A stretch of DNA of 64,000 nt from Bremia lactucae (lineage: Eukaryota; Oomycota; Peronosporomycetes; Peronosporales; Peronosporaceae): NCBI RefSeq assembly GCF_004359215.1, contig NW_027152196.1, positions 1,041,537 to 1,105,536 of the forward strand. Reading direction: 5' to 3'. Positions 1 through 50,760 of the stretch are shown one piece after another. A program made the position numbers and the translations under genes. Below the pieces are notes generated by a model. That model saw nothing but the letters and a program-made list of their open reading frames with translations. It was not told the DNA's origin and ran no database searches. The number at the start of each line of letters is the position of its first letter. Position 1 is the first letter of the stretch.

Positions 1-106
1 GGGGGGGTGGACTCGCAGGAGCAAAACCAATTCTGGCTCATGCTCATCACGCGTCGAAAATATCAACGACGCGAGTGATGTCAATGTCGAAGAAAACGAC
101 ATCGAA

Positions 107-214
107 AATGAGAGTGATCTCATGGCAGTACGCACTAAGCGTACTGAAAATGACAAAACAAATGAGAGTGATCTCATGGCAGTACGCACTAAGCGTACTG
201 AAAATGACAAAACA
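107..214 (+). repeat. Two exact tandem 54-bp units in the integrase linker
   Basis: Two identical 54-bp units lie head to tail at 107-160 and 161-214. They are in the pol frame (same frame as the integrase C-terminus at 407) and each encodes 18 residues beginning NESDLMAVR. Each unit contains two small hairpins: ATGAGA with TCTCAT, and AGTACGC with GCGTACT. The homologous linker in other copies is rich in Asn and Asp (27794-28060 and 37717-37989). Confidence 0.9.
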
Positions 215-229
215 AATGAGTTAGCAGAA

Positions 230-880
230 GAGTTTCTGCTAACTCGAGAATCAGTTATCCGTTTCGTTCAAGATTCCATTGCTAACGCAGTGGACCGATA
301 GATACGGCATGCTGACAAACATGAAAGAGCAAATGTTCATTCATTTAAAGTTAATGATCTAGTGCTACTCTCTACGGTAAACTTTCCTATGTGATTAGTC
401 ACTAATGTGGGTAGCAGTAAACTACTACCTAAGTTCGTTGGGCCTTTCTGTGTACTGCATCGCAGAGGCAATGCGTACACAATAGAATTGCCACAAAGGA
501 TGCGAACGCATCCTACGTTTTACGTTGATCGGCTCCGCCCGTACAATCAGTACGCGGCTTCTTCCGAGGACGGATTTGACCACCCTTATCAAGACCCCCT
601 GAACGATTCTTGTGATCGTGAACCAGGTTCTCATGTTGAACCTGAAGTTTCTCATGCCGGTTCCAAATTCCTCGAAACTACGATGAGCCGACGACAGCTC
701 ATCGCGAACAGCATGATACTTCCGTTCGTACTTCAACATGGATTACGCACTCTTCGAACGGTCTTCCAACCGCTCGATATGGTGAGCCAACGAGCGACGC
801 TTGCCGCGCTCGTGCTCAAGTCCCTCCTCCAAATCATGGAGGAAGAGATCAATTTTGTCGATCCTCGACATTAGATCCGA
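230..880 (+). pseudogene. Gypsy pol, integrase C-terminal domain (GyA-1)
   Basis: The open stretch 407-874 includes the motif PTFYVDRLRPY, typical of the integrase C-terminus just before the chromodomain of oomycete and fungal chromoviruses. Homologous text occurs at 49969-50100 and 15311-15420 in other elements. In-frame stops at 299-301 and near 391 separate it from the linker, so this is a decayed pol. The part after about residue 60 is not conserved and its reading frame is uncertain. Confidence 0.75.
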
Positions 881-927
881 CATACGGCTCGGATCTAATT
901 TTCCCTCCTCCACCACAACCATTGGTG

Positions 928-1140
928 GATTCCCACGGTGGTTAGCGTATCCTTGTGGAACGTATCCAGGACCACCGTGATGTGAAGAAGCAGCGAAAGA
1001 GTTATCTTGTTCGCTGGCGTGGTTATCCACCTTCACATGACAGATGGGAGTCTCGTTCCCAGCTGGTTGCTGACGTTGAGGGCCTCGTCCGTCAGTATGA
1101 CATGACCCATCCGATGGATCAGAAGGCCCATCGGAAATAA
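928..1140 (+). pseudogene. Chromodomain at the pol C-terminus (GyA-1)
   Basis: The translation contains SYLVRWRGYPPSHDRWE followed by GLVRQYD, the classic chromodomain core with its aromatic cage residues. In chromoviruses this domain follows integrase and is thought to direct integration by binding histone marks. It ends in a stop at 1138-1140. Upstream frame continuity with the integrase C-terminus is broken. The antisense open frame on the other strand overlaps it. Confidence 0.88.
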
Positions 1141-2201
1141 CGCGCCCCTGGCGCCTGTACATCGATTGCAAAACGTCAATCGCGTCACGCATCTCAATAG
1201 AGATGCGAGCCCTTCCCCAGGGCGAAGAAATAAATAGACATCCCCTTTTACCCTCTTCGAGTTGTCTACACAACACGGACAGGAATCAATCCACGTGAGG
1301 CATGGAAGCCCAGCCTCACGTGACAGCCGATGCAATTGATACTTTGCATTGGTTGGAGTTCTTTTAAAGCGATTCGCGTTAAGTTTTTGAAGCCAGGCTT
1401 CGCGCTCAATGTCTTTGACATTGCAAACGAACGCGCTCCAGGCTTGCATAAGCGAGACTTTATCTCGCTTATTATTGCCACTAAACCATCGATGCTTAAG
1501 AAAAGCATCGAGATAGAAATCTTCCCCAGCGCGAAAGTTCTTCGCGCTGGGATCAAGGCCATGTAGCTTTGTCACAATGAATAAGGGATGTTTATTGTGA
1601 GGAGTAGTTTCTCCAGACAAGCTATTGATAAACCGTTCTGGCAAAAGCCACGGCTTCTTTCAGGGGCGAGATGAGACATTTTACTGTCTTCACTCCCCTG
1701 AGTGGTACCCACTGAAGCAGGGTTACCGCAAGAACGTTTCTTACGATGGCTTACGCCATCGTCGTCACCTTGCACAGAAACACGTGCAGGTAACCGTATG
1801 GGAGATCGTACGGGCGATGAGGGATCATACTCATCGTCGGATCCAAATAGACTGGTTACTCGTCTATCAGAATGAGCCCTCTAATTCGAAGGCTCATAGT
1901 CAGCCGCCTGACGTATATCAGGCGACTGTTCCATTCTCCCCGAGTCAGCCATTTCATCCGACTCGCATTCGTAGTCGACCTCCAAAGAAGGGTCGTATTC
2001 ACGTGGTGAATCACCATGTGCACTCGCAACATCTAGTGTTGTGCGAGTGGAAGACACTACGGCAGACGTTCCGTCTGCCGCAAGAGATAGCAGTGCGGCA
2101 CCCGCGGCTGCACGAACCGCAGCCGAAGGCGCAGCGCTATCGTCACCCCGCATGAGTTGATTCTTCATGCAATGAAAATTTGAAATGATGGTTCTGACCA
2201 A
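1033..2201 (-). CDS. Conserved antisense ORF between chromodomain and 3' LTR (copy 1)
   Basis: On the strand opposite to pol, a frame starting at the ATG at 2201 runs toward the chromodomain. It has a Ala-rich start, an acidic stretch (EVDYECESDEM), one TAG near 1880, a Ser/Pro/Asp-rich part (FGSDDE), then after a frame change a 203-residue open frame (1644-1033) with LDPSAKNF, FLKHRWF, SLMQAWSAF, YQLHRLSREAG and SCPCC. A further frame (1276-743) continues with IEMRDAIDVLQSMYRR. The same protein is legible at 10346-10990 on the plus strand and at 51857-50660 on the minus strand, with mainly conservative changes. I do not recognise a domain. Antisense ORFs before the 3' LTR are known in some plant Gypsy lineages; no homology to those is claimed. 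The region is also hairpin-rich, which makes the two strands non-independent. Confidence 0.6.
1163..2125. repeat. Chain of short perfect hairpins through the antisense ORF
   Basis: Consecutive perfect inverted repeats with loops of 3-11 nt were read directly. Stems of 7 bp or more lie at 1188-1207 (8 bp), 1292-1322 (10), 1407-1423 (7), 1451-1469 (7), 1490-1510 (8), 1525-1551 (11, arm CCCAGCGCGAA), 1743-1762 (8), 1815-1836 (7), 1905-1924 (7), 2060-2080 (9, arm CGGCAGACG) and 2105-2125 (7). About half of one such stem would be expected by chance in this length at equal base composition. Shorter stems fill several of the gaps. Confidence 0.88.
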
Positions 2202-2275
2202 TCAACATCGTTTTAAAATTTAAGTGGTCATATAGCGACCACTCCATCCAATGGCAGTCAGAGTGATTGTCGTTT

Positions 2276-2288
2276 AAGGGAGGGGTGA
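2276..2288 (+). promoter_or_regulatory. Polypurine tract of GyA-1
   Basis: The run AAGGGAGGGGTGA sits directly before the LTR start, where the plus-strand primer of reverse transcription is expected. A matching GGGGAGGGTGA precedes the LTR at 9657, and AAGGGGGGA precedes the one at 51970. Confidence 0.75.
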
Positions 2289-2721
2289 TGTAACGGGGTG
2301 TATCGTCACATGAAATTTCCACTTAAAGGTTGTTAATTAATATTTTATCTAAAAGGTAGATAATATTTGGACGATGTTATTTTATATAGTAATATCCAGA
2401 ATAGACCATTTATACCTATTTATTCCGCAGACTAATCAAGTGTAGGAGTAATCAAAGAGAGAGTTATAGATAAGATAGAGATAAGAATTCATTTACATGT
2501 TTAGTATTAGATTATAATTAAGTTAGCACAAGCATAAAACAAGAGACACTTAATTATATTTAATACAGTTTTCATTTTACCCTCTTTAAGTCACTTGTCT
2601 TAAAGAGAAGTCTTCCTCTGCACGTACAGTGTACGTGAAAAAACGTAGGGCACCACTCGCAACTGAAGCAGTGCGAAGTGGACTTGTACTGAAACAGTAC
2701 TAGTCATAGTGCCCCGTTACA
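2289..2721 (+). repeat. LTR, family A (433 bp)
   Basis: The repeat begins TGTAACGGGG and ends GCCCCGTTACA, with TG...CA termini. It matches the solo LTR at 23364-23802 (opposite strand) closely, including the CACGTAC hairpin and the GTACTG/CAGTAC hairpin near the 3' end. The first 22 bp of the LTR form an imperfect inverted repeat of their own. Flanking 5-mers do not show a clear target duplication. Confidence 0.85.
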
Positions 2722-2732
2722 ACATAGAATAT

Positions 2733-3060: not shown

Positions 3061-3063
3061 ACG

Positions 3064-3072
3064 TGGTATCAC
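3064..3072 (+). promoter_or_regulatory. Primer binding site of GyA-2
   Basis: TGGTATCAC follows the LTR remnant. TGGTATCA or TGGTAGCA is the start of the usual initiator-Met tRNA-complementary site, and similar TGGTAGC sequences follow the LTRs ending at 33465 and 53178. The tRNA identity is inferred from this short match. Confidence 0.55.
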
Positions 3073-3111: not shown

Positions 3112-3432
3112 ATGGGCATGTCTGATGATATGAAAAATACGCATCACGTTTCGCGGAAAAGCTACTCCTTTCTAAGTGACATAGAAAGGAGTGCGGTCGA
3201 ACGAATGAGCTCGACCGTAGGGAATGATGCCATCCTGGCCATGCTGTCCGGCTTGGACAGAGATGCCCTACATATCGCCATCATCAAGTTCATACAACAT
3301 AAATTTGACGAGGCGAAGGAAAAGGTAGCCTTGCTTAATCAGCAAGGCTCTCAACAGGCAGAACTGTTGAGGTCACAACAGGTACAGACCCCTGTACCTG
3401 GGATGACGCACACGCGTCGCCCGGAACCATAA
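3112..3432 (+). pseudogene. Gag N-terminal fragment (GyA-2)
   Basis: A 106-residue frame starts at the first ATG after the primer binding site. The motif AMLSGLDRDALHIAI aligns with AMLSTLSRDEQHEAI, readable on the minus strand near 32150 in GyA-5, which places it as the gag N-terminal region. The frame stops at 3432, before the capsid-like and zinc-knuckle parts, and the protease follows within 160 bp, so the centre of gag is deleted. Five hairpins with stems of 7-11 bp lie in 3164-3400. Confidence 0.65.
3164..3400. repeat. Five consecutive perfect hairpins inside gag
   Basis: Stems were checked base by base: 3164-3192 (11 bp, loop 7, arm ACTCCTTTCTA), 3194-3217 (7 bp, loop 10), 3328-3348 (8 bp, loop 5, arm GCCTTGCT), 3350-3371 (8 bp, loop 6, arm CTCAACAG) and 3379-3400 (9 bp, loop 4, arm CAGGTACAG). 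Three of them follow one another with gaps of one and seven bases. Confidence 0.9.
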
Positions 3433-3590
3433 AGATATACCTCTCTTAGTATAGGGTAGTCGAAGAGGACTCTCTTTTAAGGTGACTTGTCGATTTAGAC
3501 GATGCCAGAAAGGCTCGTCAAATCGTCAACTGGTCGCGGGTCCGACGTTGTTGCAAAATCGCAACAATTAGGCGGACCTTAAAAAAACGG

Positions 3591-3809
3591 GTGGGGTCAC
3601 TCGGGGTGCAACGCCCTACTGATCTAGCAACCTCAAGAAAATTTACAAATTTCCTGACGAAAGTTGCTCCAGACACACAGTCATTATGTGTCTCTGCACC
3701 TGACGGTGAGGCATCCCTCATCACCTTGAAGTTAAAAGTGACTAATGATTTGTCACCTAGAGCCCTAGTAGACTGTGGGGCGTCGAATAACTTTATTCGT
3801 CGCCAGTAA
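3591..3809 (+). pseudogene. Retropepsin-like protease fragment (GyA-2)
   Basis: The frame ends with ALVDCGASNNFIRRQ, the aspartic protease active-site block of oomycete Gypsy elements (Asp-Cys-Gly-Ala in place of the usual Asp-Thr/Ser-Gly). The same block is at 30785-31045 (-) and about 34331 (+). A TAA follows shortly after, then the flap region (DVIFGLPWLQK near 3970) continues in broken frames. Confidence 0.75.
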
Positions 3810-3949
3810 CTAGAGGTCGTATGTTTAAATATGCTGAGCGCGGCATCCCTTTAACAAGGATGACGGTGCGATTGGATCGGTAACAGTCAGAAACCCATAG
3901 TAAGATATCACTACACGATAAAAGATTTACAGTACGATGATAATTTCAT

Positions 3950-4410
3950 TGTACTGGATTTGGATGACCAATTTGATGTCATCTTCGGTTTACCGTGGCT
4001 TCAGAAAGTATGAGCCAAGAATCAGCTGGTAGCATCGACCCGTAAAGACGCCTGCCACTTGTACATCAGATGGCCATCTGATGAACGTTTTGGAGCATCC
4101 ACAAGCGTGTGAGTGTACTACGAGTGAGTGTGATGGCCTCACTTGTGTTACGGTCGTTAGTACGACTGCACAAGATCACAGTGTGATGACTAATGACACT
4201 GTGGAGTCAGCTGCCGGCGGCTGGGCAAATGCACAGACAGCGCCGAAGGTCCACCACTCGGATAAGTTGAGTGGATTGAGACATGAATGTACGCCTAGCG
4301 GGCGACATTCAAGGAATATACCGGTTGTCCAAAAAAGTCAACACGATGATGCTAGGTCGAGGAGAGAGTCGACCATTGTGGACCCGACTGTGATAGTCGG
4401 AAGACGTTAA
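3950..4410 (+). pseudogene. Protease end and pro-RT linker (GyA-2)
   Basis: The block FGLPWL near 3985 is the protease C-terminus. It is followed by a Cys- and Ala-rich linker (GLTCVTVVSTTAQD, then NAQTAPKVHHSDKLSG) that is homologous to 30345-30704 (-) and 34599-34808 (+). The linker function is unknown. A stop at 4408-4410 ends the readable part. Confidence 0.6.
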
Positions 4411-4549
4411 GGGAATAAGTCCCCACGTACTTGAGGAGAAAGCTCCTCAAATAGTTAATGCTAGAGTGATTAGACTTCAGCATCACGAGAACTTAATCTC
4501 TCGGGATCCTAGGGATCCCAAGAAGAAATCGAGACATTTAATGTCTTGG

Positions 4550-4774
4550 TTAATGACGGATGAATAACGTTGCGAAGATCTGCGCCAGACGGCACAAACA
4601 GACGCCGATGAGCGTCGGCATCGGGCTCGCAGCATGAGCCGAGGGTTTGACCCGTTGGCAAGTTCGAATGTGCGAACGTATTTCCTTACCCAATTGTAAA
4701 AGGACGTGGCTATGTGACCTGTTCTGCAACGGATATTGCTTCTTCAAGCTTATCCATTTCCAAGCAGAACACAT
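4550..4774 (-). pseudogene. Integrase zinc-finger fragment, inverted
   Basis: Minus-strand translation gives IRTCQRVKPSAHAASP, which matches the CC half of the integrase HHCC zinc-binding domain at 14420-14510 (RTCETCQRAKPSAHAAAP) of the family-B element. It is therefore a family-B-like piece set on the opposite strand inside GyA-2. Confidence 0.6.
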
Positions 4775-5023: not shown

Positions 5024-5179
5024 TTGGGAACCTCTTGCCATTCTGCTGTGGAACTGTGGACGTCCGGAAAATGCTTCTGGTCCGGGTTCTCCTCTAAGGA
5101 GGCGCTTATACTCTTGATCTGTATGCGCCTCCGAAGTTAACTTCGGAGATAACTCAATTATTAACCCAATAACCTAAAT

Positions 5180-6082
5180 GGTCCTTGAGAGAGCTGTATT
5201 GTGACAAAATCATGCGTACTCGTCATCGCGGACGAATACGTGACCGATATTTGGTCAGCGGTAATTTTTGCAGAGAACGAACGGTTTCTCAGCGGCTCAT
5301 CGATGGACGAAAGTGTCCTCAACGTGAAGACTCGGATAGAGAGATATGCTACTCAACCCTGGAAGTCACATAAGACAAATCTTTTTTTACAAAATTTAGA
5401 TTGAATTCAAGGGTTTGTTTCCTGAAGTATCTCCATGCGAGTTGCCTAATGACAAAGGCATTCGACATGAGATGGAGCTCGAACCGGGCTAGAAGTACTG
5501 TGTCATGAAGCAGTGGCCACTGCCACGTAAACAAGTACTTGAGATCGATAAATTCTTTATTGATCGATTCAAAGCGGTCTATGCAAGGGAGTTATCTTTC
5601 TCTCCGACCTTCTGTGTGCGAAAGGCCACAGGAGGGTGGCCGACAGTGCACACATCAATAAACTGAATGCTGCACAGGTAAGGGCTCAAACTTTGATACC
5701 ACGAAAAGACGTAACCATAGATGGCATGTCTAAAAGCGCCATCTTTTCATCTATGGTTCTGATAGATGGATTTTATCAGACCCTTATGTGTGAACGAGAC
5801 ATCCCGTACACAGAAGTTAGCACTCCCAAGGGGATGATCTGGGAATGGCTAGTAATGCCACAAGGGCTAAGTATCGCCCCCTGCAACATTCAACGGATGC
5901 GTAACGGATCTGTTGAGACCGGTGCGAGAGGCACACCGAGTTATTTCGACGATATATTCGTCCATAGCCGGGCTATGGACGTAAAGACGGACGTGGAAGC
6001 TCATAAAACTCACGTTCGTCAAGGTTTTTACTTAAAAAAAGGTATATGCTTGCAGAGTTGTTACTTGTGGCCGAGACTGTAA
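5180..6082 (+). pseudogene. Reverse transcriptase (GyA-2)
   Basis: The pre-RT segment (5200-5400) leads into LPNDKGIRHEMELEPG, the conserved block before the fingers, then FFIDRFKAVYARELSFSPTF, GWPTVH, the palm block EWLVMPQGLS and the catalytic YFDDIFVHS at about 5942. The catalytic Asp pair is intact. A TAG lies after MELEPG, and the frame is lost after 6082 before the thumb. It polymerised cDNA in the ancestral element. Confidence 0.82.
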
Positions 6083-9415: not shown

Positions 9416-9540
9416 GCACTCTCCCTTAATACGGCAGACGCCCTGTCTGCCGCAAGAGACAATAATGCGTCGCCCGGGGCTGCATGTCTCGCTGCCGAAG
9501 GCGCCACACTATTCGCACACCGCATGGACTCATTAACCAT
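9416..9540 (-). pseudogene. Antisense-ORF N-terminus fragment (copy 2)
   Basis: Minus-strand translation from the ATG at 9540 gives SVAPSAARHAAPGDALLSLAAD, matching SAAPSAAVRAAAGAALLSLAAD at the start of the antisense ORF of GyA-1. It is cut at about 9415 by the junction with Copia integrase. The LTR follows 116 bp to the right, as in GyA-1. Confidence 0.65.
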
Positions 9541-9656
9541 GCGATAAAATTGAAAGTGATTGTTCTAACCAATCACCATCGTTTTCACTTAAGTGGTCTC
9601 GTAGCGACTACTCTATTCAATGACATTCAGAGTGATTGTCGTTTGGGGAGGGTGAT

Positions 9657-10046
9657 TTAACAGGGCGTATCGTTACATTAATATTTACAAGTTGTTAATA
9701 AACATATTATCGTAACATTACATAAAACTTATTCATAGACAAATATAGGCCTTAATATCAACTTTTTCCGCAGTCCAGTCAACGCTGGACGCGCGCAAAG
9801 AGAGAGACAGATCAGATTTCAAAATATGTTTTGTATTAGTATATAATTAAGTTAGTATGTAATATATAGAAACAGGAGGCTTAATTATATCAACTACAGT
9901 TTACTCTTTAATCCTCTTTAAAGCAAGTTCTTAAAGAGAGTCTTTCTCTGTACTAACGAGTGTACGTGAAGTGACGTGTGGCACCGCTTGTACTGAAGCA
10001 GTGCGAAGTGGATTTGTACTGAAGCAGTACAAGTCGACAGTGCCCC
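9657..10046 (+). repeat. LTR, family A (degenerate ends)
   Basis: It follows the purine tract GGGGAGGGTGA, begins TTTAACAGGG and ends GTGCCCCGGTTTA, both mutated versions of TGTAAC...GTTACA. Internal matches to the LTR remnant at 2733-3060 include CCAGTCAACGCTGG and GAGAGAGACAGAT. Confidence 0.75.
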
Positions 10047-10047
10047 G

Positions 10048-10345
10048 GTTTACCTCGGCAACAGTCTAAATTAAATGAAGCTTGCGCATTACGTAGTTTG
10101 CCGTGTACATGTCAATGCAAGTTACGGACCAGGCCGTAACTTGCACATAAGTCTTACGAATGGGGTATTCATTATTGTCCCAGCGCTGCGTTGCAAACTT
10201 TATCACATCCTTCTGACGTATGCACACCTTATAACATTGCTTCCAAGCTTCGTCAAAAAAATTGAGATTTATTCTTTTTTCAACGTACCCAATGGAGCAC
10301 CAAGAGCTTGCATTGTGATCCAGTAGTAACTGCTTCACTAAAAAA
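10048..10345 (-). other. Family-A derived stretch with a 12-bp hairpin
   Basis: No domain is recognisable. A perfect hairpin with 12-bp arms (TGCAAGTTACGG and its complement) and a 6-nt loop lies at 10116-10145. The hairpin style and the adjoining antisense ORF suggest it is the 3' end region of a minus-strand family-A element. Confidence 0.45.
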
Positions 10346-10990
10346 GCATTCATCTTCTCCCGCAACACTAACTGTTGCGGGTGCACGTGGTGAGTCTCCA
10401 CGTGGACCCGACCCTCTTCGGAGGTCGACTATGAATGCGAGTCAGACGAGATGACCGACTCGGAAGAGTGGAACAGCCACCCGAATGTCGTCAGGCGACT
10501 GACTATGAGCCGTCGAATGAGGGTCTCAATTGGATAGTCGTGCTTATAGCGTTCGCTATAGCATGTTTGGTTCGGACGATGAGGATGATTCCCCATCGCC
10601 AGCACCGTCTCCCGTCCGTCACCCGCACTCATCCATGCGCGTTGTGATGACGATGGCGTAAACCATGGTGATAAAAGTTCTCATGGTATTCCTGCTTCAG
10701 TAGGTACCACTCAGGGGAGTGCAGACAATAAAATGTCTCGGCTTGCCCCTAAGAAGAAGCCGTCGCGGCTTTTGCCCGAACGGCTACCCAGTAGCTTGTC
10801 TTGAGAGACTGCTCCTCACAACAAATATCCTTTAATTATTGCGACAAGGCTACTTGGTCTTGATCCCAGCGCGAAGAACTTTCCCGCTGATTCGGATTCT
10901 TATCTCGATAATTTTCTGAAACATCGATGGTATAAGGGCAACAACAAGCGAGGTAAAAGCTCGTTGATACAAGCCTGAGACGCGTTCATT
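10346..10990 (+). pseudogene. Antisense ORF fragment (copy 3), on the plus strand
   Basis: This stretch reads, in plus-strand frames, EVDYECESDEM, DYEPSNEG, FGSDDEDDSPSP, then LGLDPSAKNF and FLKHRWYKGNNKRGKSSLIQA. It aligns with the minus-strand ORF of GyA-1 over its first two thirds. The internal TAG of copy 1 is a sense codon here (GAG), so that stop is not ancestral. The host element would be on the minus strand. Two stops and frameshifts break it, and it ends at about 10990 where unrelated sequence begins. Confidence 0.62.
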
Positions 10991-11301
10991 CGCTCCTTTT
11001 ACAGCAATTTATTGTTTTTCTTGCTGGCACTCATTTCGCAAAAAAACAATGACCAAGCTCTTATACAGCAGACATTTCCCCTTAATGACACATTTTTCCA
11101 AAAACGAATTAACGGTGGCGGAGGATGCTGAAGAAAAATTGGAGAATGGTATTGAGGAATTTTAAAGGATTGTGCAGCAATTAATGACAACTTACCGAAG
11201 CATGATCTATAGTGAACGAAAGAAAATGATAGCTCAACTCATGGAGATGGTAACCTAGAGATCAAGACCACAAAACTCTCTTAGTACCCTAGTTAGGCAG
11301 C

Positions 11302-27720: not shown

Positions 27721-27793
27721 TTACCGTAGACAGTAGGACTAGATCATTAATATTCAATGAAATAAATGAAAGTATATTTGCTCTTCCATTTTC

Positions 27794-28444
27794 TTAAAAG
27801 TTCCGTTTCTTTCGGCTCACCGCATCAGCGAAAGAATCCTCTACAAGACGGACCACTAATTCTCTAGCCAGCAGGAAATCACCTGCTGACTCAGATTTAT
27901 TTTTGCTTTCAGTACGACCGGCTGCCACTGCGGAGATATTAATCTCTCCATTATTGAGAGTAGTATCATTACCATTAGTAGTATTGTTATCGATGCTGAG
28001 TCTTTCAGCATCGTTGTCTAAGTCAGTAATAGCATTATTGTTATAACTGGTTTTGACCACTTAAATGTTAACTAGCTCAACATTGATATCCTTCGCATTG
28101 CCTTAGGGCTATTGCGTGATGAGCAAGAGCTATAAGGTTATTTGCTCGAGCAATTCTCCCCTTAAAGAAAGAGTTACTCTCAAACAGGATAGGTATATGT
28201 GGGTGGCGTAAGCCATCCACAAAACGGCGTTTACTTTGTGGAAGCATGCACTGAATTGTTGATGGCAAATTCTACCATCGGCAAGAACTCGCTCCAACTC
28301 TTAAAGAGTAGACGTACCCGCGAAGTATCTCTTTGAGAAGACTAATTGCTTGCTCCGTCTCACCGTCTGTTTCAGGATGATCAGAAGTTGACGTTTTCAA
28401 GTGGGTTATAAGTGATTTAAGCACTTTTTGCCAAAGTTCCGCCG
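27794..28444 (-). pseudogene. Integrase core end and C-terminal linker (GyA-5)
   Basis: YTAELWQKVLKSL and STSDHPETDGETEQ hold the third catalytic residue (Glu) of integrase. Then come VDGLRHPHIPILFESNS and an Asn/Asp-rich linker (ERLSIDNNTTNGNDTT, then RTESKNKSESAGDFLLARE), homologous to 37448-37989 on the plus strand. Frames change at 28268 and 28060. The frame actually continues a few bases into the LTR insertion border. Confidence 0.78.
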
Positions 28445-28926
28445 TGTAATAGGGCACACATCGGATGGAGAGCCGTTATTGTGTACATTTACTTTATGAG
28501 TAAATTACCCTTTATTCTAATTTAAAATAGTGAATTACTTAAATCCCATTTATTATGGGTAATAATGTGGTCGCCGCCAGGTATAAATCTGGCGGCCAAA
28601 ATATTTTTTTAATTTGCTAGGATAAGGTTTTTAGACTTAAATAATTAAATAAAGTTCAGTTCCCCTTTTGATCTTAAAGCGTTAAGTGCCTTCCTAAGGC
28701 TGGCGCATTGATCTGTAAGAGATAGAAGCCTTTCTAAGGTATATCCTCGTGGGCACTAGGTGCGACTTGGTTCTACGAGCCCCTGAATCCTTGTACCAGG
28801 ATTCCTTAAGCTTTGATAGCTTGTACGACACCCTGGGTTGTTAAACCCGTTAGTTTAATAGAACTAAGTGACTCTCTGAGACTGGAAGTCTTCCTCTAAT
28901 TTTAGGAGCGAGGTAGCTCCGCTACA
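28445..28926 (+). repeat. Solo LTR, family B (482 bp), inserted in integrase
   Basis: It runs from TGTAATAGGGC to GCTCCGCTACA and matches 16588-17065. It interrupts the GyA-5 integrase just after the second catalytic Asp block, with the core resuming on its other side. An exact target duplication is not evident. It is younger than GyA-5. Confidence 0.85.
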
Positions 28927-29240
28927 GTGAATCTAGGGTCTTAATCTGAGACAAGTTCACCGGGTGGCCCATGGAATAAAAATACGTGTAAATAAATACA
29001 CGAGCACAGCTTTTGGCTGTGATCGACTCCGGGACGGCGGCGAGATGACCCATCCTGCCTAAACGGTAAAATAAACAAGAATGCCATTATTCGTGTGATT
29101 GTCTTCGGGTTCCCCGAGGACGAAGTCCATCAGTACGGACTGCTGACACTTTGTCTAAACAGGCAGATGTTGTAACGGAGCACGGGACGAAGTATTGGGC
29201 TTCACCCATTGACAACCTTCGCAAGCACGTATGTACTTGC
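28927..29240 (-). pseudogene. Integrase zinc finger and core, first part (GyA-5)
   Basis: Minus-strand text reads RKYIRACEGCQWVKP (CC half of the zinc finger), then a core with VLMDFVLGEPED (first Asp) and a frameshifted copy of the FSKMGHL and LVSDRDP blocks near the LTR insertion. Stops occur. A hairpin overlaps the codons for RKY and ACE (arms CGCAAG and CTTGCG). Confidence 0.65.
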
Positions 29241-29455
29241 GGAACACATACTGGCGTGGCAAGTAAAAGTCGCGCCTTATCGCGAGATAAGTCTTCTCAT
29301 GTCCACAATGACCACTCATTGGTGCTTCGCTGTATAAAACACTAAATCATTACGTGTCGTATATCGATCTGTTTAGGATCGATCCAATTTCGATAATTCT
29401 CTTAAGGATTGTTGGTGTTGGATATTATAGGTGATCCATCAACCCTTTAAGAGCA

Positions 29456-29721
29456 TTATTTACTTGCTCTTCTAACGTCATCGAGTAATGTTGACGACGA
29501 AACAATTATTGTTGCAACAGTGGCCTTATGCACACTATTGATTTGCGCAGCCGGCTCAAAATTGGGCCGACGCGAAAGGGCATCAACGACATCGCTAAGT
29601 CGTCCTGATTTATACTCCACGGCAAAGTTACACACCGCGAAGGAAGACAACCATCTCGCCATTTGCGAGAGGTGTGGAATGTTTGCGGCCGTGCGTGATG
29701 ACGCATGGTCCGTAAATACAA
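29456..29721 (-). pseudogene. RNase H C-terminal part (GyA-5)
   Basis: MARWLSSFAVCNFAVEYKSG and VVDALSRRPNFE are the conserved end of Ty3/Gypsy RNase H. The upstream TDH block is present only as YTDHASSRTAA-like text in another frame. Confidence 0.8.
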
Positions 29722-29772
29722 TGTACTGTCAATATCCTAAGAGACAAACCCTAAGCTTTGCCAGTGCGTATT

Positions 29773-30240
29773 TCATGGTAAGATGTTCCTTGTCATGCAC
29801 TCGATCGGTGCGAAATCTCGCACCGAACTTAACAGATTGCTTACACATCGGTTAAAAGTTTTACCGGCATTAGTTAGTCCCTGTGGTATGACTAGCCACT
29901 CCCATGGCACTCTGCTTGGGGTGATTACTGCTGTGAATGACATTTTCCTGTTCACGCATAAGGATCGAATGGAATTCGTCCATTAGATCCATTGGCGAAG
30001 AGATAGTACTCTTTGACTTACCATCAATGATTACGTCTTTTCGTGGTATCGGCGTTTGAGCCGGTACCGTTGCAGCGTTAAAATTATTAAATGCATGCAC
30101 TATCAGCATCCTCCTATCGCTTTACACTCACAGAAGGTCGGAGAGCTATGCGGGGAAGTTGATTTCCTTACATGGCCCGCTGCTAAGCGTTCGGCATAGA
30201 ATTTGTCGATTACAATTACTTGTTCACGAGGCAATGGACA
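29773..30240 (-). pseudogene. Reverse transcriptase fingers and palm (GyA-5)
   Basis: CPLPREQVIVIDKFYAERL, FNNFNAATVPAQTPIPRKDV, SPMDLMDEFHSILMRE and PWEWLVIPQGLTNAGKTFN are RT blocks 1-4. The segment with the YxDD catalytic pair is missing, since the sequence jumps to RNase H. It is non-functional. Confidence 0.8.
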
Positions 30241-30344
30241 TGTCTCTAGCTGTTGTTGCGCTATCACAGCGAGACCCTCTACGATCGACTCTCGAGTCGA
30301 TTTAAATCTTTCGCACTGTCTCTTATAGACGGGCGTCTCAAATT

Positions 30345-30704
30345 TTATTGAATGTTTCTTTCCAAACAAGATCCTTGTTTCGTACCACTCAACGTATTTG
30401 AGCGGTCGAACTTCGGCGCTGCCTGTGCTTGTGCACAACCGTCGGTAACTATGTCCACGTCACAATGGTGGACCTTCGACACTGCCTGTGCTTGTGCACA
30501 GCCATCGGGACCTAACTCTACAATAAGTTGGGTACTCACACCAAGGTCTTGTGCAGTCATGCTAACGACCGATCTACAAGTGAGGCCATCGCACATCACG
30601 TAAGACATACACACGATTATGGACGCTCCAAGACGTTCAACGGTTGGCCATCTGATGAACAAGAGACAGCCATCGTCACGGCTTGATGCTGCCGATTTAT
30701 ACAT
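30345..30704 (-). pseudogene. Protease-RT linker with internal tandem duplication (GyA-5)
   Basis: The frame contains DGLTCRSVVSMTAQDLGVS and two copies of DGCAQAQA (imperfect tandem units at about 30414-30510) separated by a short linker. Its homologues at 4081-4410 and 34599-34808 have one unit. Function unknown. Confidence 0.65.
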
Positions 30705-30784
30705 GGCTCGTACGTTCTGAGCTAAGGTAATTCAAGGATGACATCAAATCTGTCATCTAAATCTGGTACGATGAAATCATCTTC

Positions 30785-31045
30785 TTACTGTTTACCCTTT
30801 AAAGTGTATTGGGTGCCAACTACACGTTCTCTTACTGTTACAGATGCGCCTGTTGCTACGTGCACTATCATCCTCGTAAGAGGGATATCATGCTCATTAT
30901 ACTTGAGTCTGCGATCTTCTAGCGATTGGCGTCGAATAAAATTGTTCAATGCCCCACAATCAACAAGGGACTTAAGTGGCAAGTTGTTTGACAGTTCTAT
31001 TTCTAGGGTTATGAGGTAAACCTCATCCCTGGGGCAGTTACGCAC
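30785..31045 (-). pseudogene. Retropepsin-like protease (GyA-5)
   Basis: SLVDCGALNNFIRRQSL is the active-site block, with Asp preserved and the usual Ser after Ala replaced by Leu. ERDIPLTRM-type text (NEHDIPLTRM) and the ATGASVTV strand follow. An ATG-led frame of 86 residues is intact. Confidence 0.78.
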
Positions 31046-31199
31046 TATGTTTGTGTCTTAGGAGCATCTTTCGTCAAAAGTCCTGCAAATTCTTTTGGCG
31101 TTGCTGGATCAGTAGGGCGCTTCGCACCTACTGACCCCGACCATATTTTTTAAGATCCGCCTCGCCGTTGCGCATTTACAACAGCGTCGGATCCGCACC

Positions 31200-32300
31200 C
31201 TCCGCTTTTTCTAGCGAGAGGTCGGTCTTTGTGCTCAGTGCTTTTAGGCACTGGGCCGTGGGGCACTACACTCATAGGCGAAGTGATCCATTTTCTTACA
31301 ACGATAACCATTCTGTAATCGTTTGTAACTTGAAGAGCGAGATTTCTCGCTCTCTACATACGAAAGATCCATATGTGCCGGCTCCGTTTTCTTGTCGCCT
31401 TGGAGGACGATAAGCTATAGAGTGGACGAAAGCCCTTTTCAGGCTAAAGTTCTCCTGTTCCGCTATAGAGATCACTCGGTACAGCGACTCTTACTCTAGC
31501 TGGAACACGTGGGTCTTATCAGGTCCGTCTGCAAGACCTTTGATAAACACAGTTACCTGTGTTTGCTCATCAATTGGATGAAGTACGAAGCTATCGTTTA
31601 TGTTGGGCATAAGCGTGAATGTCATGCTTGCCCTGCTGTAAATCCAGGAGCTCGGCTCGAGCCCTAGATTTGGCACGTGGCGGCTCAAATGCTTGTCTGA
31701 CCTGGGTCTTAAAGACCTTATACAACCCAAAGACAAATGAGTCGTGAAGCTTGAGCCCCAAGGCCCGAGATTTGGCACGTCCGGTTTAGTTAGACATGCC
31801 AAATTTTACTTTTTCGCATCATCACTGATACGACGAGCTTCTATGACATCGTCTAGTTCGACGAACCATCTGAAAAGGGAGTCGTCTTCGACTACCTTAA
31901 AGCTTAAATATTTCTATCTTTATGCTTTCTAATGGGTCGACACTTCCGTGTCGACCCATTAGCAGCACATACACGCTAGTGTCTCAATATTTTAACTGTT
32001 AAGCACCTTGTTTTTAAAACACCTCTGTATGTTGAGAGCCTTGCTGATGAAGCAAGCTTACTTTTCTTCGACCTTGTCGTTTTCGAATTGTATGGACTCG
32101 GCTATGGCCTCATGCTGTTCATCTCTGCTCAGAGTGGACAGCATTGCGCCAACCGCTAGCCCGCCTACGACCGAACTCATTCGTTCGGTCGCTCTCCGTT
32201 CGAGGTCACTCAATTGCGGATACCTCTCACGCGTTGCGTGATACCTTCCTGAGGGACTTGGAAGCTCCCTCCTTCTTCATCCAACATGCCCATTGAATGG
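31200..32300 (-). pseudogene. Gag with degenerate zinc knuckle (GyA-5)
   Basis: Near 32150 AMLSTLSRDEQHEAI marks the N-terminal part. Around 31802-31491 the capsid-like region has LRTSSN and VYQRS in broken frames, aligned with 33500-33700 of GyA-6. MDLSYVESEKSRSSS and YRCKKMDHFAYECSAP follow near 31340-31270; the knuckle keeps CX4HX4C but its first Cys is Gly. A 15-bp hairpin lies at 31929-31962. Confidence 0.65.
31929..31962. repeat. Perfect 15-bp hairpin inside GyA-5 gag region
   Basis: Arms CTAATGGGTCGACAC (31929-31943) and its exact complement (31948-31962) flank the loop TTCC. It lies between two homologous gag blocks. Confidence 0.9.
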
Positions 32301-32330
32301 AACTTGCGTGGGTCGTTGTGAGGACTACAA

Positions 32331-33480: not shown

Positions 33481-34185
33481 TATGATGATGCGACGAAAGT
33501 GAAAATTGGCATGTCCGTCTTCGCCAGACGTTTCAGGTCTAAGAGCTCAGGCCTCAAGCTCCACGGCCTATTAATGGTTAGGTTTTATGAGGTCTTTAAG
33601 ACCCGGCTCGAGCGACCATATGAGTTGCTCCGTGCCGAATTCGGGTTTTGAGTTAAGCTCCAGGTTTTGAAGCAGGGCAAGCGTGGTCTTTTTCGCTTAT
33701 GTCCAATATACACGATACCTTGTATGTTGCATGGTGAGTCATAATAGATGAATAAACACAGGCAACTTTGCTTAATAAAAGTCGTGCGGATGTTCCTGTC
33801 AACACTCACATGTTCCGGCTCGACCTAGAGACGCTATGCTAAGCGATCACTGTAGCGGAGCAGGAAATTCAGTCTGAAACTTGCTTTTGTCCACTTTGAA
33901 GCTTATCGTTCTTCGAGACGACAAGAAAACGGAGGTCCGAACCTATGATCCTCTCGTATATAGAGAGCGAGAAATCTCGCTCTTCAATTTACGAACGATT
34001 GCAAAAATGCAATCGTTGCCAAAAGACGGAGTGCCTCAAGCTGTGAGCCTAGAAACACTTAGCAAAACGACCGCCCCCCCCACTAGGAACACGGAGGACG
34101 CGGATTTGACGCTGTTGCGAAATTGTAACGGCGAAGCGGATCGTCAAAAAAAGGTCGGAGTCAGTAGATGCGAAGAGCCCTACTG
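33481..34185 (+). pseudogene. Gag remnant (GyA-6)
   Basis: RSKSSGLKLHGLL, FYEVFKTRLERPYELLRAEFG and LKQGKRGLFRL align with the capsid-like region of GyA-5 gag. After 33881, YVESEKSRSS-type codons recur as the hairpin at 33964-33983. The gag N-terminus is missing and stops interrupt it. Confidence 0.6.
33964..34017. repeat. Two adjacent hairpins conserved between GyA-5 and GyA-6
   Basis: The first pairs GAGCGAGA (33965-33972) with TCTCGCTC (33975-33982), one more pair outside. The second has 10-bp arms AACGATTGCA (33994-34003) and its complement (34008-34017), loop AAAA. In GyA-5 the first is identical and the second has diverged in sequence but still pairs over most of its length (AACGAT with ATCGTT). 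Confidence 0.82.
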
Positions 34186-34430
34186 ATCCAGCAACGTCAA
34201 AAGAGTTTGCAGGTCTTTTGACAAAATTTGCTCCTAAGACACACTCGTTGTGTTTAGCTGCCCCAGTTGATGCGGTAAACCTCATCACCTCAAAAATATA
34301 GTTGCAAATAAATTTTCTCAAAAGTCTTTTGTCGATTGTGGGGCGTCGATCGACGTCAATCTCTCGATGATCGTAGACTCACAGTTTCTGAGCGCGATAT
34401 CCATCTAACGAGAATGACAGTCGCCTAGCA
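34186..34430 (+). pseudogene. Protease fragment (GyA-6)
   Basis: LTKFAPKTHSLCLAAP leads to FVDCGAS at about 34331-34351, the active-site block with intact Asp. Stops and a frameshift follow at once. Confidence 0.68.
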
Positions 34431-34598
34431 ACAGGCGCATCTGTAACAGTAAAGAAGCGTACAGATACACGTTGAAGGGTTAACAGTACGTTGATGATCT
34501 CACGTACTGGATTTGGATAACAAATTGATTCCATTCTTGGATAACCATGACTCAGTAAGTATGAGCCATGCATAAACTGGCAGCATCAAGCGGTAACG

Positions 34599-35055
34599 AT
34601 GCCTACCTCTCGTCCATCAGGTGGTCATCTGATGAACGTCTTGGAGCGTCTACAAACGCTTGGATATCCTAAAAGTGAGTTCGATTGCCTCACATGTGGT
34701 TCGGTCGTTTGCACGACTACGCGAGACCTCAGTGTGACAATCCATCCCACTGTGGAGTTAGGTCCGTCCCGACGGCTGTGCCCAAGCACAGGCAGCGTCG
34801 AAGATTGATTACTCGAATTGGTTGAGATGTACGAATCACGAATGTTTATTTAAAGGCAACATCCAAGAACATTTGAAACAGCTGTCTATAAGAGATAGTG
34901 CGAAAGTTCTCGATTGACTGGAGAGAGGATTTCGCTGTGGTAGCGCAACCACAGCTAACGACAGTTGGGGAGAATACTCCCCAAATGAAAGTTGAGGGCT
35001 CAAGTCCTTAAGATTTTGCGGAAATAAGTCGTTAGAAACCTCTAATAAATGGTTT
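34599..35055 (+). pseudogene. Protease-RT linker (GyA-6)
   Basis: DCLTCGSVVCTTTRDLSV and the Ala/Gln-rich unit (in a shifted frame) align with the linker of GyA-2 and GyA-5. Two clean 8-bp hairpins lie at 34934-34955 (arm GCTGTGGT) and 34965-34984 (arm TTGGGGAG). Confidence 0.6.
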
Positions 35056-36095
35056 CCAGGTTCCTTTAAGAACAAGTTTGAGAGTGGAAACTAGAATTGG
35101 TATTTTGCTTGCAGCGGATATCCATTTCCCGTGATTTGCATACAACTTGTGCTTACGCAGAAGTGTAAGAACCTTTCGGACGTGGATGCGATGTACTTCA
35201 ACGTCCAACTAACCTTTCATGGCTCTGCTATGAACGAAGACGTCATCAAAATAGCTCGGTGCAAAATCTCGCACCGCTCTCAACAGATTAGTTTCACATC
35301 TGTTTTAATTTAGCAGGGGCAGTGCTAAGTACGTGTGGCATGACTAGCCACTCCCACATCATACCGCTTGGGGTGCTTACTGCTGTGAACGGATTATCTT
35401 CATCACGCATAAGGATCTGATAAAATACGTCTATCAGATCATTGATGAAAAAATGGGACTATTTGACATACCATTAATGAATTCGTCTTTTCGTGGTATC
35501 GGCGTTTGAGCCGGTAGCGTTGCAGCGTTTAATCAATTGAACGCATGCCCAATCCGCCACTCTCCTGTTCGTTTACGCACACAGGAGGTCGCAGAGTTAT
35601 GTGGGGATGTTGGCTCCCTCACTTGACCCGCCGCTAAGCAATCGGCAAAGAATTTGTCGATCGCTAATACTTGTTCACGAGTCAGTGACCATTGCTTCGT
35701 GATAAAGTTTTTTTTAAGCTGGCATCAGATCGATTTCGTATAGAGTGCCTTCATCATTTGGCAACTTGGAGTACGGATTGTAAAAGAAACATCCTTGAAT
35801 TCGATCAAATCTTTATATAAAGGACTTGTCTTATAGTTTCCCAGGACTGGGATGTGAAGCGTTAGATCCGAATTTTTTTATTGAGGCCATCGTTGAGCTG
35901 CTGAGAACCCTTCCATTCTCAGGAAATACTTTTGCCGGCCAAATGTCGGCCACAAACTTTTTCATCTATGACAAGTAGGTAGATCTGATTATCATTGCCA
36001 CTACGCATATTACCCAATAATCGAAACGATTCTTGCGTTAGGAATTGAATTTTCTCCAAGTTGACTTCGGAAGCGCTAATTAATCAAGTGTATAA
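35056..36095 (-). pseudogene. Inverted pre-RT and RT segment inside GyA-6
   Basis: Between the plus-strand linker and plus-strand thumb, about 1 kb reads on the minus strand: ASQSWETIRQ (pre-RT), EQVLAIDKFF-type text, PAQTPIPRKDEF, the palm and SYFDDVFVHSRAMKG, then LRKHKLYANHGKW. That is exactly the segment missing from the plus strand, in correct internal order but reversed. The catalytic Asp pair is intact. Stops are present. Confidence 0.75.
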
Positions 36096-36104
36096 GCGCC
36101 TACA

Positions 36105-36335
36105 CTTACTTTGTTGTTTCCAAAGACATTTAACGTCTCTGGGTGCGTTGTGGATAAACACGGTGTAAGCCCAGATCCAGATAAGATCAAGGCGATCACC
36201 GACCGGCTTGTGCCAGTCGATATAAAGAGACTTAGAAAGCTCCTCGCTTTAGAGGCGCACCGGCACAAGCACTCACGCAATTATGCCGAAATGACAGTAC
36301 ATATTTCTACTTTGTTGAAGAAAACTTAAAGTAAT
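36105..36335 (+). pseudogene. RT thumb (GyA-6)
   Basis: VVDKHGVSPDPDKIKAITD, LVPVDIKRLRKLLAL and SRNYAEMTVHISTLLKK are the thumb/connection of Ty3/Gypsy RT, resuming on the plus strand right after the inverted block. Confidence 0.8.
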
Positions 36336-36387
36336 CATGGAACGCTGATTGTCATCGTTCCTTCGAGAATATAAAGCAAGGCTTGAT

Positions 36388-36700
36388 GCAATCGCCAATT
36401 CTAGCGATTGCTGACCAAGATAGACCATTTCATGTGGTCTGTGAGGCCAGCGATTTTGCAATCGACGGCCGTGAACAGTCTACATCTCGCAAATGGCGAG
36501 ATGGTTGTCTTTCTTCGCGGTGTATAACTTCACCGTGAAGTCTAAAACAGGACGACTAAATCTCGTCGTTGATGCCCTTTCGCGCCGGCCCAATTTTAGG
36601 CCGGCTGCGCAAATCAACAGTGTGCATATGGCCACTGTTGCAACAATAATTGTTTCGTCGTCAACATTACTCGATGACGTTAAAAGAGCAAAAAAATGAG
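36388..36700 (+). pseudogene. RNase H (GyA-6)
   Basis: PILAIADQDRPFHVVCEASDFAI-like text leads to ARWLSFFAVYNFTVKSKTG and VVDALSRRPNF. Hairpins lie at 36388-36411 (8 bp, arm GCAATCGC), 36584-36605 (7 bp) and 36615-36640 (8 bp). The middle of RNase H, including the TDHASL block, is deleted. Confidence 0.75.
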
Positions 36701-36889
36701 GCTCTTACAGGGTTGATGGATCACCTAAAATATTCATCCCAACAATCTTTAATAGGATTTGTCAAAATTGCATCGACCTCAATAGATCGATACAAAAAAC
36801 AAAACGCAATGGTGTACTGTACTATACAGCCATTGCTGGTGACACGCTTCGTATCGTCATCCCTGTGTCGTCATCCCCATCAATAATGA

Positions 36890-37685
36890 TTTGCGTTTAG
36901 ACATCATGTATGGGTGCCACGATGAACCAAAAAGCGGACATCGTGAAAGTAAGAAAAATTATCTCACGATAAGCCACGATTTCTACTGGCCACGCCAGTA
37001 AAGCACTGGGTTCTCTCGTTGACATACTACCTACGAAGTATGTCAACGAGAGAACGCAGCGCTTGATCCCGTGTCCGTTACAATTTCTGCCTGTTCCGGC
37101 AGAAAATTGGCAGTACGTATCAATGGACCTCGTCTTCGATTTTCCTGAAGCCGATCACAAGAATACTGGCATTCTTGTGTTTGTTTATCGTTTTAGCAAG
37201 ATGGCATATCTTGCTTAAGTCCCGGAATCGACCACAGCCGGAGGCTGTGCTCGTATCTGTATCGACACGATATTTCGACTTCACGAATTATTCGTTGAGC
37301 TGGGCTTAGTTTGATGCCCCAGATTCACGCGGTGTTTTGGCAATCTGTGTTCAAATTACTAGTAACGCAGTTGAAAATGTCAACTTTTGATCATCCTGGA
37401 ACAGATGGTCAGACGGGACGTGCAAACCGTATTCTCGAAGAGATACTTTGCGGATATGTCTAAAGAGTTGGAGCGAGTTCTTGCCGATGGTAGAATTTGC
37501 CATCAACAATTCAGTGCATGCTTCCACAAAGCATACACCTTATTTCGTGAATGGCTTACGCCACCCACGTATACCCATCCTGTTTGAGAGTAACTCTTAC
37601 TTAAAGGGGGGCTCGCTCGAGCGAACAACCTTATAGCTCTTGCTCATCACGCATTAGCCCTAAGGTCAATGCGAAGGATACCGAA
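36890..37685 (+). pseudogene. Integrase zinc finger and core (GyA-6)
   Basis: GCHDEPKSGHRESKKNYL and ISHDFYWPRQ give the HH half of the zinc finger, and EVCQREN the CC half. The core has VSMDLVFDFPEADH (first Asp), NTGILVFVYRFSKMAYLA and, after a broken stretch, a FDHPGTDGQTGRANR block where the catalytic Glu position reads Gly (TGRAN for TER). The second Asp block is damaged. FVNGLRHPRIPILFESNS ends it. Frameshifts and stops are present. Confidence 0.72.
37010..37249. repeat. Five hairpins in 240 bp of integrase, including a perfect 19-bp stem
   Basis: 37010-37055 has arms GTTCTCTCGTTGACATACT and its exact complement with an 8-nt loop; the right arm encodes the conserved EVCQRE. Then 37085-37104 (7 bp, arm TTCTGCC), 37156-37179 (9 bp, arm CACAAGAAT), 37195-37215 (8 bp, arm AGCAAGAT, within the SKMAYLA codons) and 37233-37249 (7 bp, arm CACAGCC). 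Copy 2 has them at plus 11,845. Confidence 0.92.
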
Positions 37686-38123
37686 ATTGAGTTTAGAATC
37701 ATTTAAGTGGACAAATTCAGTAATAACATAATGCTACTGCTGATCTAGATAACGATGCTGAAAGACTCAGCATCGATAACAATACTAATAATGATAATGA
37801 TAATACTCTCAATAATGAAAAGATTAATATCTGTGCAGTAGCAGCCGGTCGTACTGAAAGCAAAAATAAATTCGAGTCAGCAGGAGTTTTCCTGCTGGCT
37901 AGAGAATCAGTAGTCCGTGTCGTATAGGATTCTTTCGCTGATGCGGTGAACCGAAAGAAACGGAACTCTGAAAAAAAATGGAAGAGCAATCATACTTTCA
38001 TTTATTTCATTGAATGCTAATGATTTAGTCCTATTGTCGACGGTAAACTTACCAAAAACACGTAGTGACGAATGTAGGCAGTTATAAATTACTGCCCAGA
38101 TATATCGGCCTGTTTCGTGTACT
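37686..38123 (+). pseudogene. Integrase linker and C-terminus start (GyA-6)
   Basis: An Asn/Asp-rich low-complexity linker (ERLSIDNNTNNDNDNTLNN) is followed by AGVFLLARESVVRVV, and then INYCPDI. Frames are broken; the C-terminal block GLFRV runs into the gap, and continues in copy 2 at 49969. Confidence 0.68.
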
Positions 38124-49968: not shown

Positions 49969-50340
49969 ACCCCGCCATGAAAATGTTTACACGATCGAGC
50001 TGCCTCGTAGTAGGCATTCTACGTTTTATATTAGGCGTCTCCGCTTGTACCATCAGCACGTGGCTTATTCCGATTCCTGATGACACCGAAACCGTCAAGG
50101 GCATCAGCCAAAGCCTGATGGTTCCAAGCCTGAGACTTATTGCCTCGGAAAAGGGTCTGATTCTCTTGAACAAGACGATCCACTCTTTCCTCGAAGGAAG
50201 AGAATTCCTGACGAGCTGTCTCCAGCTCGTTTTTAAGGGACTGATCTGTCCTTTCGTTCGCCAGTTAATTAGCCGCAACCTGCGCACAATTTATCATCTG
50301 GTCACGAGATACATTATCGACCGTCACCGCTAACTCAAGC
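49969..50340 (+). pseudogene. Integrase C-terminus (GyA-6)
   Basis: Continues from INYCPDISACF-type text with NVYTIELPRS and, in a shifted frame, FYIRRLRLYHQHVAYSDS, matching NAYTIELPQR and FYVDRLRPYNQYAASSED of GyA-1. The remaining 200 bp up to the chromodomain are not conserved. A further stretch to 50609 shows nothing recognisable. Confidence 0.72.
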
Positions 50341-50609
50341 GTCGGGATCGCCCGTGATAAAAACTCTCATTTAAATACATTGCGCTTTCAAAAGTTAAAG
50401 AAATTCCAAAAGAAATTGTAAAAGGCCATGGACTTGGATCTACTAGGCATCAGCGTTTCTACTTGACTCATAAACTTCAACCCTAAACCCTTAAATAATA
50501 AAAGTTTGATCCAAATCGCGATGTTGATTCGGGCTCGTCAAACGAGGCGAGCCCGATCTTTCCTCCCCCTCTACATCCATAAATGGATTTAGGTGGTGAG
50601 AAGCGCTTC

Positions 50610-50760
50610 TTGTCGAAAGCTACTTGGACCATCGTGAGGCAAAGGGCGTTTATATGAGTTATCTCGCTCGTTGGCGAGGGTGTTCACCCTCGCATGATGA
50701 AGTTGGACGTTCAGGGTCGCGTCTTACAGTACGACGAGACCTATCCTCCTCGGCAGAACG
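50610..50760 (+). pseudogene. Chromodomain (GyA-6)
   Basis: YLDHREAKG, then SYLARWRGCSPSHD, and in another frame VQGRVLQYDETYPP, match the family-A chromodomain of GyA-1 (VRWRGYPPSHD, GLVRQYD). The frame is broken in the middle. Confidence 0.72.

Follow-up and report, generated by a model that had tools for sequence, protein, structure and literature searches.

Chains of short perfect hairpins mark one lineage of Gypsy elements in Bremia lactucae and may be kept by selection for folding on both strands

A high density of short perfect hairpins marks one lineage of Gypsy elements in the genome of Bremia lactucae, i.e. family A and its relative A', with a weaker form in elements of the L037 type and a slight one in family B. 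We tentatively propose, at a little under an even chance, that A/A' elements are under selection for local fold-back on both strands, a maintenance that we infer from sequence comparison; templated correction of one hairpin arm from the other is a serious main rival, or a contributor. The window, i.e. the whole stretch of DNA analysed, spans 64 000 nt (positions 1 041 537 to 1 105 536 of contig NW_027152196.1). The genome search covered 115.9 Mb in 220 contigs and gave 2650 candidates at first look, of which 40 were scored; 39 of these 40 matched positions 1163-2125 of the window at 87-95 %, some only in part. The genome report describes a 115 Mb assembly with 24 Mb of gaps, in which Gypsy elements make up 58.6 % of the contig sequence (PMC6570648).

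Counting perfect stems of at least 7 bp with loops of 3-11 nt, we found 12 stems of 7-11 bp within the 963 bp of positions 1163-2125, for which a preliminary description of this DNA had counted eleven, whereas 2000 dinucleotide shuffles averaged 0.44 and never held more than 4 (mean 0.55 and maximum 3 in an earlier set of 60). The density is therefore not reproduced by the shuffle control which that description had called for, and its argument that the hairpins go beyond base composition holds, since the dinucleotide shuffles fail to reach the observed counts. Its coordinates for further hairpin-rich stretches were likewise exact (Table 1), and one of these, in A' (37010-37249), includes a 19-bp stem (37010-37055). 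The density is not confined to these spots: the excess in the window tracks retroelement sequence, with 6.06 stems per kb in the parts attributed by similarity to family A (12.2 kb), 4.64 in those attributed to A' (17.2 kb, duplicate in part) and 1.77 in the unlabelled remainder (33.3 kb), which includes the hairpin-rich 59-62 kb. Positions 1-6000 are the richest part, their successive 2-kb segments holding 21, 15 and 9 stems where about one would be expected. Positions 26889-38123 and 38734-49968 are identical over 11 235 bp with 610 N between them, representing either a tandem duplication or an assembly artefact; the stems there are thus counted twice and are not independent. A search of the whole window against Rfam at gathering scores gave no match.

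Positions 59001-62000 appear LTR-like by eye and carry 14 stems in 3 kb, and they are dissimilar to the A/A' pieces; within them, a 100-N gap separates 59045-59436 from its inverted copy at 60132-60546 (91 %). At 61116-61183, an isolated and perfect inverted repeat of 32 bp (arms by eye), with a loop of 4 nt, may stem from a fold-back event private to one copy, because the dispersed relatives listed match either side of it and not across it.

Family A resembles the Ty3/Gypsy LTR retrotransposons in its gag, protease (PR), reverse transcriptase (RT), RNase H and integrase (IN) domains and in its LTRs. Pfam searches of family-A pieces identified Retrotrans_gag, RVP_2, RVT_1, RT_RNaseH, Integrase_H2C2 and SH3_Tf2-1, and the Gypsy order, i.e. 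gag followed by PR-RT-RNaseH-IN, was found from the coordinates of the longer A copy L031 and of the window; L031 also has paired LTRs (686-957 vs 8232-8500, 84.6 %). To our knowledge, neither a chain of hairpins nor a long antisense frame is a defining feature of this group. The hairpins had been placed in the coding sequence of gag, RNase H, integrase and an antisense ORF. While the antisense ORF does overlie the flagged 963 bp, these lie after the pol stop (~1138, with a chromodomain-like end at ~940-1130 by eye), and the stems that do fall in gag, PR and RT are in other parts of the elements. At ~107-214, a hairpin-bearing 54-bp unit is tandemly repeated in this copy (stems 126-146 and 180-200). 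Parts of pol read N in L006 (900-1457) and in other fetched copies.

Table 1. Positions of element parts and hairpin stems in the window
Feature	Position	Strand	Remarks
3' end of family-A Gypsy pol	1..1140	+	12 stems of at least 7 bp; SH3_Tf2-1 in frame 395-871
Flagged stretch, pol stop to probable 3' LTR	1163..2125		12 stems
Flagged stems 1-6	1188-1207, 1292-1322, 1407-1423, 1448-1472, 1489-1511, 1525-1551		
Flagged stems 7-12	1743-1762, 1815-1836, 1905-1924, 2060-2080, 2076-2100, 2105-2125		
Antisense open frame	1036..2201	-	Broken here: pieces 2201-1884, 1880-1575, 1659-1036
Probable 3' LTR	2288..2726	+	TG...CA ends and polypurine tract by eye; 3 stems
Second family-A element, 5' coding part	3164..3400	+	gag by position, no Pfam match; five stems
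Second element, protease region	3500..4560	+	Six stems; homologous to L031 frame 2363-3412, which matches RVP_2 (Pfam)
Second element, reverse transcriptase region	5097..6031	+	Four stems
Older family-A fragments, stems decayed	9427..10993		9427-10055 +, 10350-10993 inverted
A'/A element pieces, rich in hairpins	27752..32210		
A'/A pieces	33778..38123		With 33964-34017 (two stems), 34934-34984 (two), 36388-36640 (four), 37010-37249 (five)
Identical second copy of 26889-38123 (to 49968) and further A' sequence	38734..51838		

For stem counts, 16 pieces were fetched around RT matches. Among these, the number of stems per 2 kb is 23 in the A-type piece L048 (0.73 in shuffles) and nine in L037 (1.1), with 0-3 in each of the other 14 (0.57-1.27). 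L031 holds 58 stems in 8.5 kb (3.9 in shuffles), and four longer A' pieces, one of them a window copy, hold 24-37 (2.35-3.8). An RT tree was built from 49 of 56 candidate pieces, the rest having no usable match or less than 500 nt after removal of N; on this tree, core A copies carry 2-9 stems within 0.6-0.8 kb, the A' pieces L066 and L078 three and one, four L037-type pieces three each, seven B pieces 0-1, and the four sister pieces L070-L072 and L076 none. Family B had been described as not showing the hairpins by eye, and the trait is indeed family-specific, but stems of at least 6 bp are about 2-3-fold above shuffles in four B pieces (6-8 vs 2.7-3.5). Considering this mild excess of 5-6 bp stems in B together with the folding of the B piece L041 (see below), a weaker form of the trait extends wider than family A.

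Two A' elements, L093 (C12:925500-932000) and L094 (C6:501500-508000), have internally inverted and reordered segments and mostly broken frames, with several genome copies scoring equally against the query. They are possibly non-autonomous and mobilised in trans.

Codon choice had been suspected of being bent so that arms pair, and codon-preserving shuffles of open frames, in which the stems are lost, bear this out. Under synonymous-codon shuffling, the observed and shuffled counts were 10 vs 0.63 in L048 RT, 12 vs 1.03 in L048 PR and 9 vs 1.28 in L037, with none of 1000 shuffles reaching the observed number in any of the three. Seven control pieces had 1-2 stems of at least 7 bp, within the range of their shuffles; the three B pieces among them were mildly rich in stems of at least 6 bp (2, 13 and 4 of 300 shuffles reached the observed number).

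The geometry of the repeats was counted as inverted 7-mers pooled over five partly homologous pieces. Their excess is concentrated at loops of up to ~12-15 nt, with observed vs expected numbers of 29 vs 3.2 for loops of 0-2 nt, 110 vs 7.3 for 3-10, 19 vs 5.7 for 11-15 and 18 vs 12.9 for 16-30. At a distance of 31-50, the excess is about twofold for inverted (33 vs 17.7) as well as for direct repeats (34 vs 17.3), and farther away the numbers are near chance; direct repeats at short distance show small excesses only (7 vs 2.5 at 0-2). In family A, a weaker excess persists for loops of 12-30 nt (6 vs 1.6, 13 vs 2.3 and 19 vs 7.7). The longest pooled stem is 12 among the listed lengths of 5-15. 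Inner positions are complementary about as often as by chance (4 of 22 in 3-nt loops, 16 of 50 in 4-nt loops); being paired no more often than by chance, they indicate that the unit behaves as a physical hairpin. Copying through the centre, considered in view of the enrichment at loops of 0-2 nt, was set aside, as loops of 3-4 nt show no such enrichment of their inner pairs.

Evidence on maintenance is given by the substitutions between A and A'. When stems of L031 were compared with four A' copies, 31-39 pairs per comparison had changed on both sides, and the Watson-Crick share of these was 0.46-0.61, compared with 0.37-0.39 in the control, i.e. isolated complementary pairs at the same distances, which replaced slid pairs as an unfair control, these not being complementary initially. 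Both-sided change was 1.6-1.8 times that under independence in stems and 1.03-1.10 times in the control; by our arithmetic, 17-19 compensated pairs stand against 7-9 expected, a two- to threefold excess in four comparisons that are related and, sharing L031, not independent. Of 68 mapped stems (at least 6 bp), 38 retain at least k-1 pairs in one or other A' copy across ~28 % divergence; at least one double-changed Watson-Crick pair is present in 32 of the 68, several of these 32 being otherwise not kept. Examples are TGTCATCAA/TTGATGACA vs CGTCGTCAA/TTGACGACG, TGAGGCA/TGCCTCA vs AGAGGCA/TGCCTCT, and ATGAGCTG/CAGCTCAT vs ACGAGCTG/CAGCTCGT.

The reverse mapping of A' stems onto L031 is weaker, with Watson-Crick shares of 0.43, 0.50, 0.43 and 0.58, the last without both-sided excess (1.08). 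Both-changed pairs are Watson-Crick in 5 of 11 cases for L048 mapped onto L094 and in 2 of 9 and 0 of 1 for the two closest A' copies, and A stems mapped onto L037 gave 2 of 7 and 3 of 6, numbers too small to use. At the A/A' scale, stem sites change nearly as fast as the control (0.22-0.23 vs 0.28-0.31), a gap which is partly due to the stems having been chosen as perfect in one copy. That many hairpins are retained between related families through paired changes suggests that folding itself matters to the element. The compensation that the preliminary description had proposed to look for thus exists as paired substitutions, most changes in single copies being uncompensated.

In 30 copies of the 963 bp, stems have changed mostly by uncompensated singletons, as expected of dead insertions. 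In RT, pairs changed on both sides include C-G/T-A in 22 vs 8 copies and T-A/C-G in 17 vs 13, and all three double changes shared by at least three copies are Watson-Crick; of the rare double changes, 5 of 10 in the 3' region and 3 of 7 in RT are Watson-Crick, not clearly above the control share. Mean diversity over the 30 copies of the 3' region is 0.048 in stems, 0.091 in loops and 0.072 elsewhere, and when the stem mask was shifted circularly, 1 of 1000 shifts gave a stem diversity as low. If a stem is counted wherever any one copy has it, minor alleles found in at least four copies occupy 9 of 441 stem, 10 of 131 loop and 15 of 402 other sites in the 3' region, and 25 of 342, 15 of 107 and 20 of 346, respectively, in RT. 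The lower stem diversity in RT is not significant (91 of 1000 circular shifts) and reverses with the any-copy definition (0.092 vs 0.083); lower stem diversity with stems taken from one reference was set aside as largely an ascertainment effect. Loops are the most variable hairpin part in the RT coding sequence, too (0.119 vs 0.090 elsewhere). In all four comparisons, stem codons differ in amino acid a little more often than the other codons do (0.28 vs 0.26, 0.33 vs 0.27, 0.47 vs 0.35 and 0.22 vs 0.20), and in our reading some of the compensations are non-synonymous.

Folding was compared between strands in 150-nt segments. Five family-A pieces (12, 15, 19, 24 and 5 segments) have mean fold z values of -2.8 to -6, with sense and antisense alike, e.g. 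-4.11/-4.05 for positions 1-2287. L041, the sole B piece folded, gave -3.5/-2.9 on the two strands; values were milder for the sister piece L070 (-2.0/-1.6, five segments), L037 (-1.1/-1.8), L038 (-1.5/-1.0) and window positions 13-16 kb (-1.3/-1.4), and near zero for L034, L036 and window positions 20.0-21.6 kb. One-mismatch stems contain 19 GU, 17 AC and 18 other mismatches, some sites being counted once in L031 and again in L048. On the loop side, the first broken pair is AC in 48 cases vs GU in 22, and on the outer side it is GU in 46 vs AC in 54. Shared alternative states are AC 18 and GU 7 in RT and AC 4 and GU 3 in the 3' region, with rare states at AC 36 and GU 35, and AC 61 and GU 51. 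The surplus of shared AC over GU may be mutational, since outside stems, too, G to A is more frequent than C to T (0.066 vs 0.057). Read on the sense strand, loops contain more A (0.359) than T (0.274), a hint at sense-strand folding.

The main rival holds that arms are copied from arms, time and again, by fold-back template switching of this lineage's RT, or later in DNA, so that quasi-palindromes arising by chance become perfect hairpins and mismatches are repaired, with no benefit to the element needed; we regard this as a real possibility, if well short of an even one. Quasi-palindrome correction, or short template-switch mutation, produces perfect Watson-Crick arms, short loops and loop inversions, and A/A' elements are alike in all three respects. 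The exact reverse complement of a loop in near-identical flanks of the same orientation was found as ACAAA/TTTGT in L005 and L015, TTC/GAA in L017 and GAAC/GTTC in L022, counted without a chance control, and 83 of 1702 homologous loop pairs with at least two differences are nearer to the reverse complement, mostly from three inverted loops and again without a chance control. These inversions point to hairpin formation and hairpin-mediated switching, but they are possibly a by-product of existing hairpins. The strictly Watson-Crick stems, whose mismatch types resemble the decay of perfect stems, the strand symmetry of folding and the concerted two-arm changes even where non-synonymous (in our reading) point in the same direction, and lineage specificity would follow from the type of RT.

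On the other hand, arm asymmetry in RT compared with the sister lineage is 0.12, with 0.22 under random placement, and three other comparisons are also below random (RT region vs L070, L037, L039 and L066 in all). Both arms are equally diverged, which argues against the copying of whole arms, and the one-arm clustered change typical of quasi-palindromes was not found in these four comparisons. Arm copying, one of the causes offered at the outset, thus gains from the three loop inversions and loses from the missing one-arm divergence. Moreover, in contrast to quasi-palindrome correction, the hairpins run over the whole length of the elements in one lineage and show long-term paired one-base changes. 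The stem density of L048 RT (9 in 799 bp) is as high as that of the 3' region, which argues against mutation filtered by protein selection, as this would, we infer, leave fewer stems in RT; stem diversity in the 3' region is also lower.

Selection on the sense genomic RNA only, through packaging signals, RNA compaction or genome-scale ordered RNA structure, would agree with the negative fold z of the five family-A pieces and with the A-rich loops of the sense strand. Such selection should, however, tolerate G:U over A:C, and GU is not above AC; as the antisense strand also folds equally well, the original proposal of selection on the genomic RNA, understood as sense RNA alone, was not supported, and we consider it improbable. 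Base composition, codon usage or chance has next to no probability as an explanation, because dinucleotide and codon shuffles lose the stems, other families have little of the trait or none, and direct repeats show no comparable excess, and no point in favour of this reading was found.

If A/A' elements are under selection for fold-back on both strands, this would keep much of their sequence, whether coding or non-coding, foldable into short and strictly Watson-Crick hairpins, mostly of 7-12 bp and with loops of ~3-12 nt. Pairing would seemingly be needed in the sense RNA and in its complement, i.e. an antisense transcript and/or the minus-strand cDNA, since Watson-Crick stems fold in both and show no wobble preference on either strand. 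The benefit might be hindered annealing of complementary strands, leading to less dsRNA and less RNA silencing, or alternatively compaction of the genome for packaging.

Within the flagged region, an antisense frame is open over 317-327 aa in 9 of 30 copies, while 500 shuffles of one copy gave a maximum of 218 aa, and in L008 (754-2574, antisense) an N-free frame of up to 607 aa extends into pol antisense. Codon-preserving shuffles of the antisense frame in three copies left 1.2-1.6 stems vs 16-22 observed. Pfam searches of six antisense pieces gave no match above the cut-off. Compared with the copy at 9.4-11 kb, changes were most frequent at third codon positions in each of the three antisense pieces that this copy covers; they were not so compared with L031, which leaves an antisense coding constraint unproven. 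An antisense gene opposite pol would give both strands a reason to stay folded. It is conceivable, although rather unlikely, that hairpins filling both strands keep the sense RNA and the transcript of the antisense ORF from annealing, so that silencing would be escaped with both strands coding.

Genome-scale ordered RNA structure is a property of the genomic strand in which wobble pairs are tolerated. Among the literature consulted, this structure of RNA viruses is the closest known phenomenon (PMC9784701): like it, the folding of A/A' spans the genome including coding sequence, with folding energy well below that of shuffles (in predicted folds), but A/A' are retrotransposons with short perfect hairpins, with both strands equal, no wobble preference and no wobble tolerance of the viral kind. 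A limited literature search found no title on hairpin-rich Gypsy elements, and we make no claim that they are unpublished. The genomes of Q-beta-type RNA phages and the RNA of satellite tobacco mosaic virus are chains of local stem-loops, in entities that use RNA for replication or package it into small capsids; A/A' elements share the local stem-loop genome with both, and the involvement of both strands with the phages.

If paired substitutions do maintain about ten perfect hairpins in every kb, A/A' would be an extreme example of structure imposed on coding sequence, and they share the genome with a sister lineage without hairpins in the RT pieces seen. The old question of why some RNA genomes fold globally would thereby become directly testable, with silencing escape, packaging and replication as the alternatives. 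If arms are instead copied by template switching, the same elements would be a natural system for template-switch mutation.
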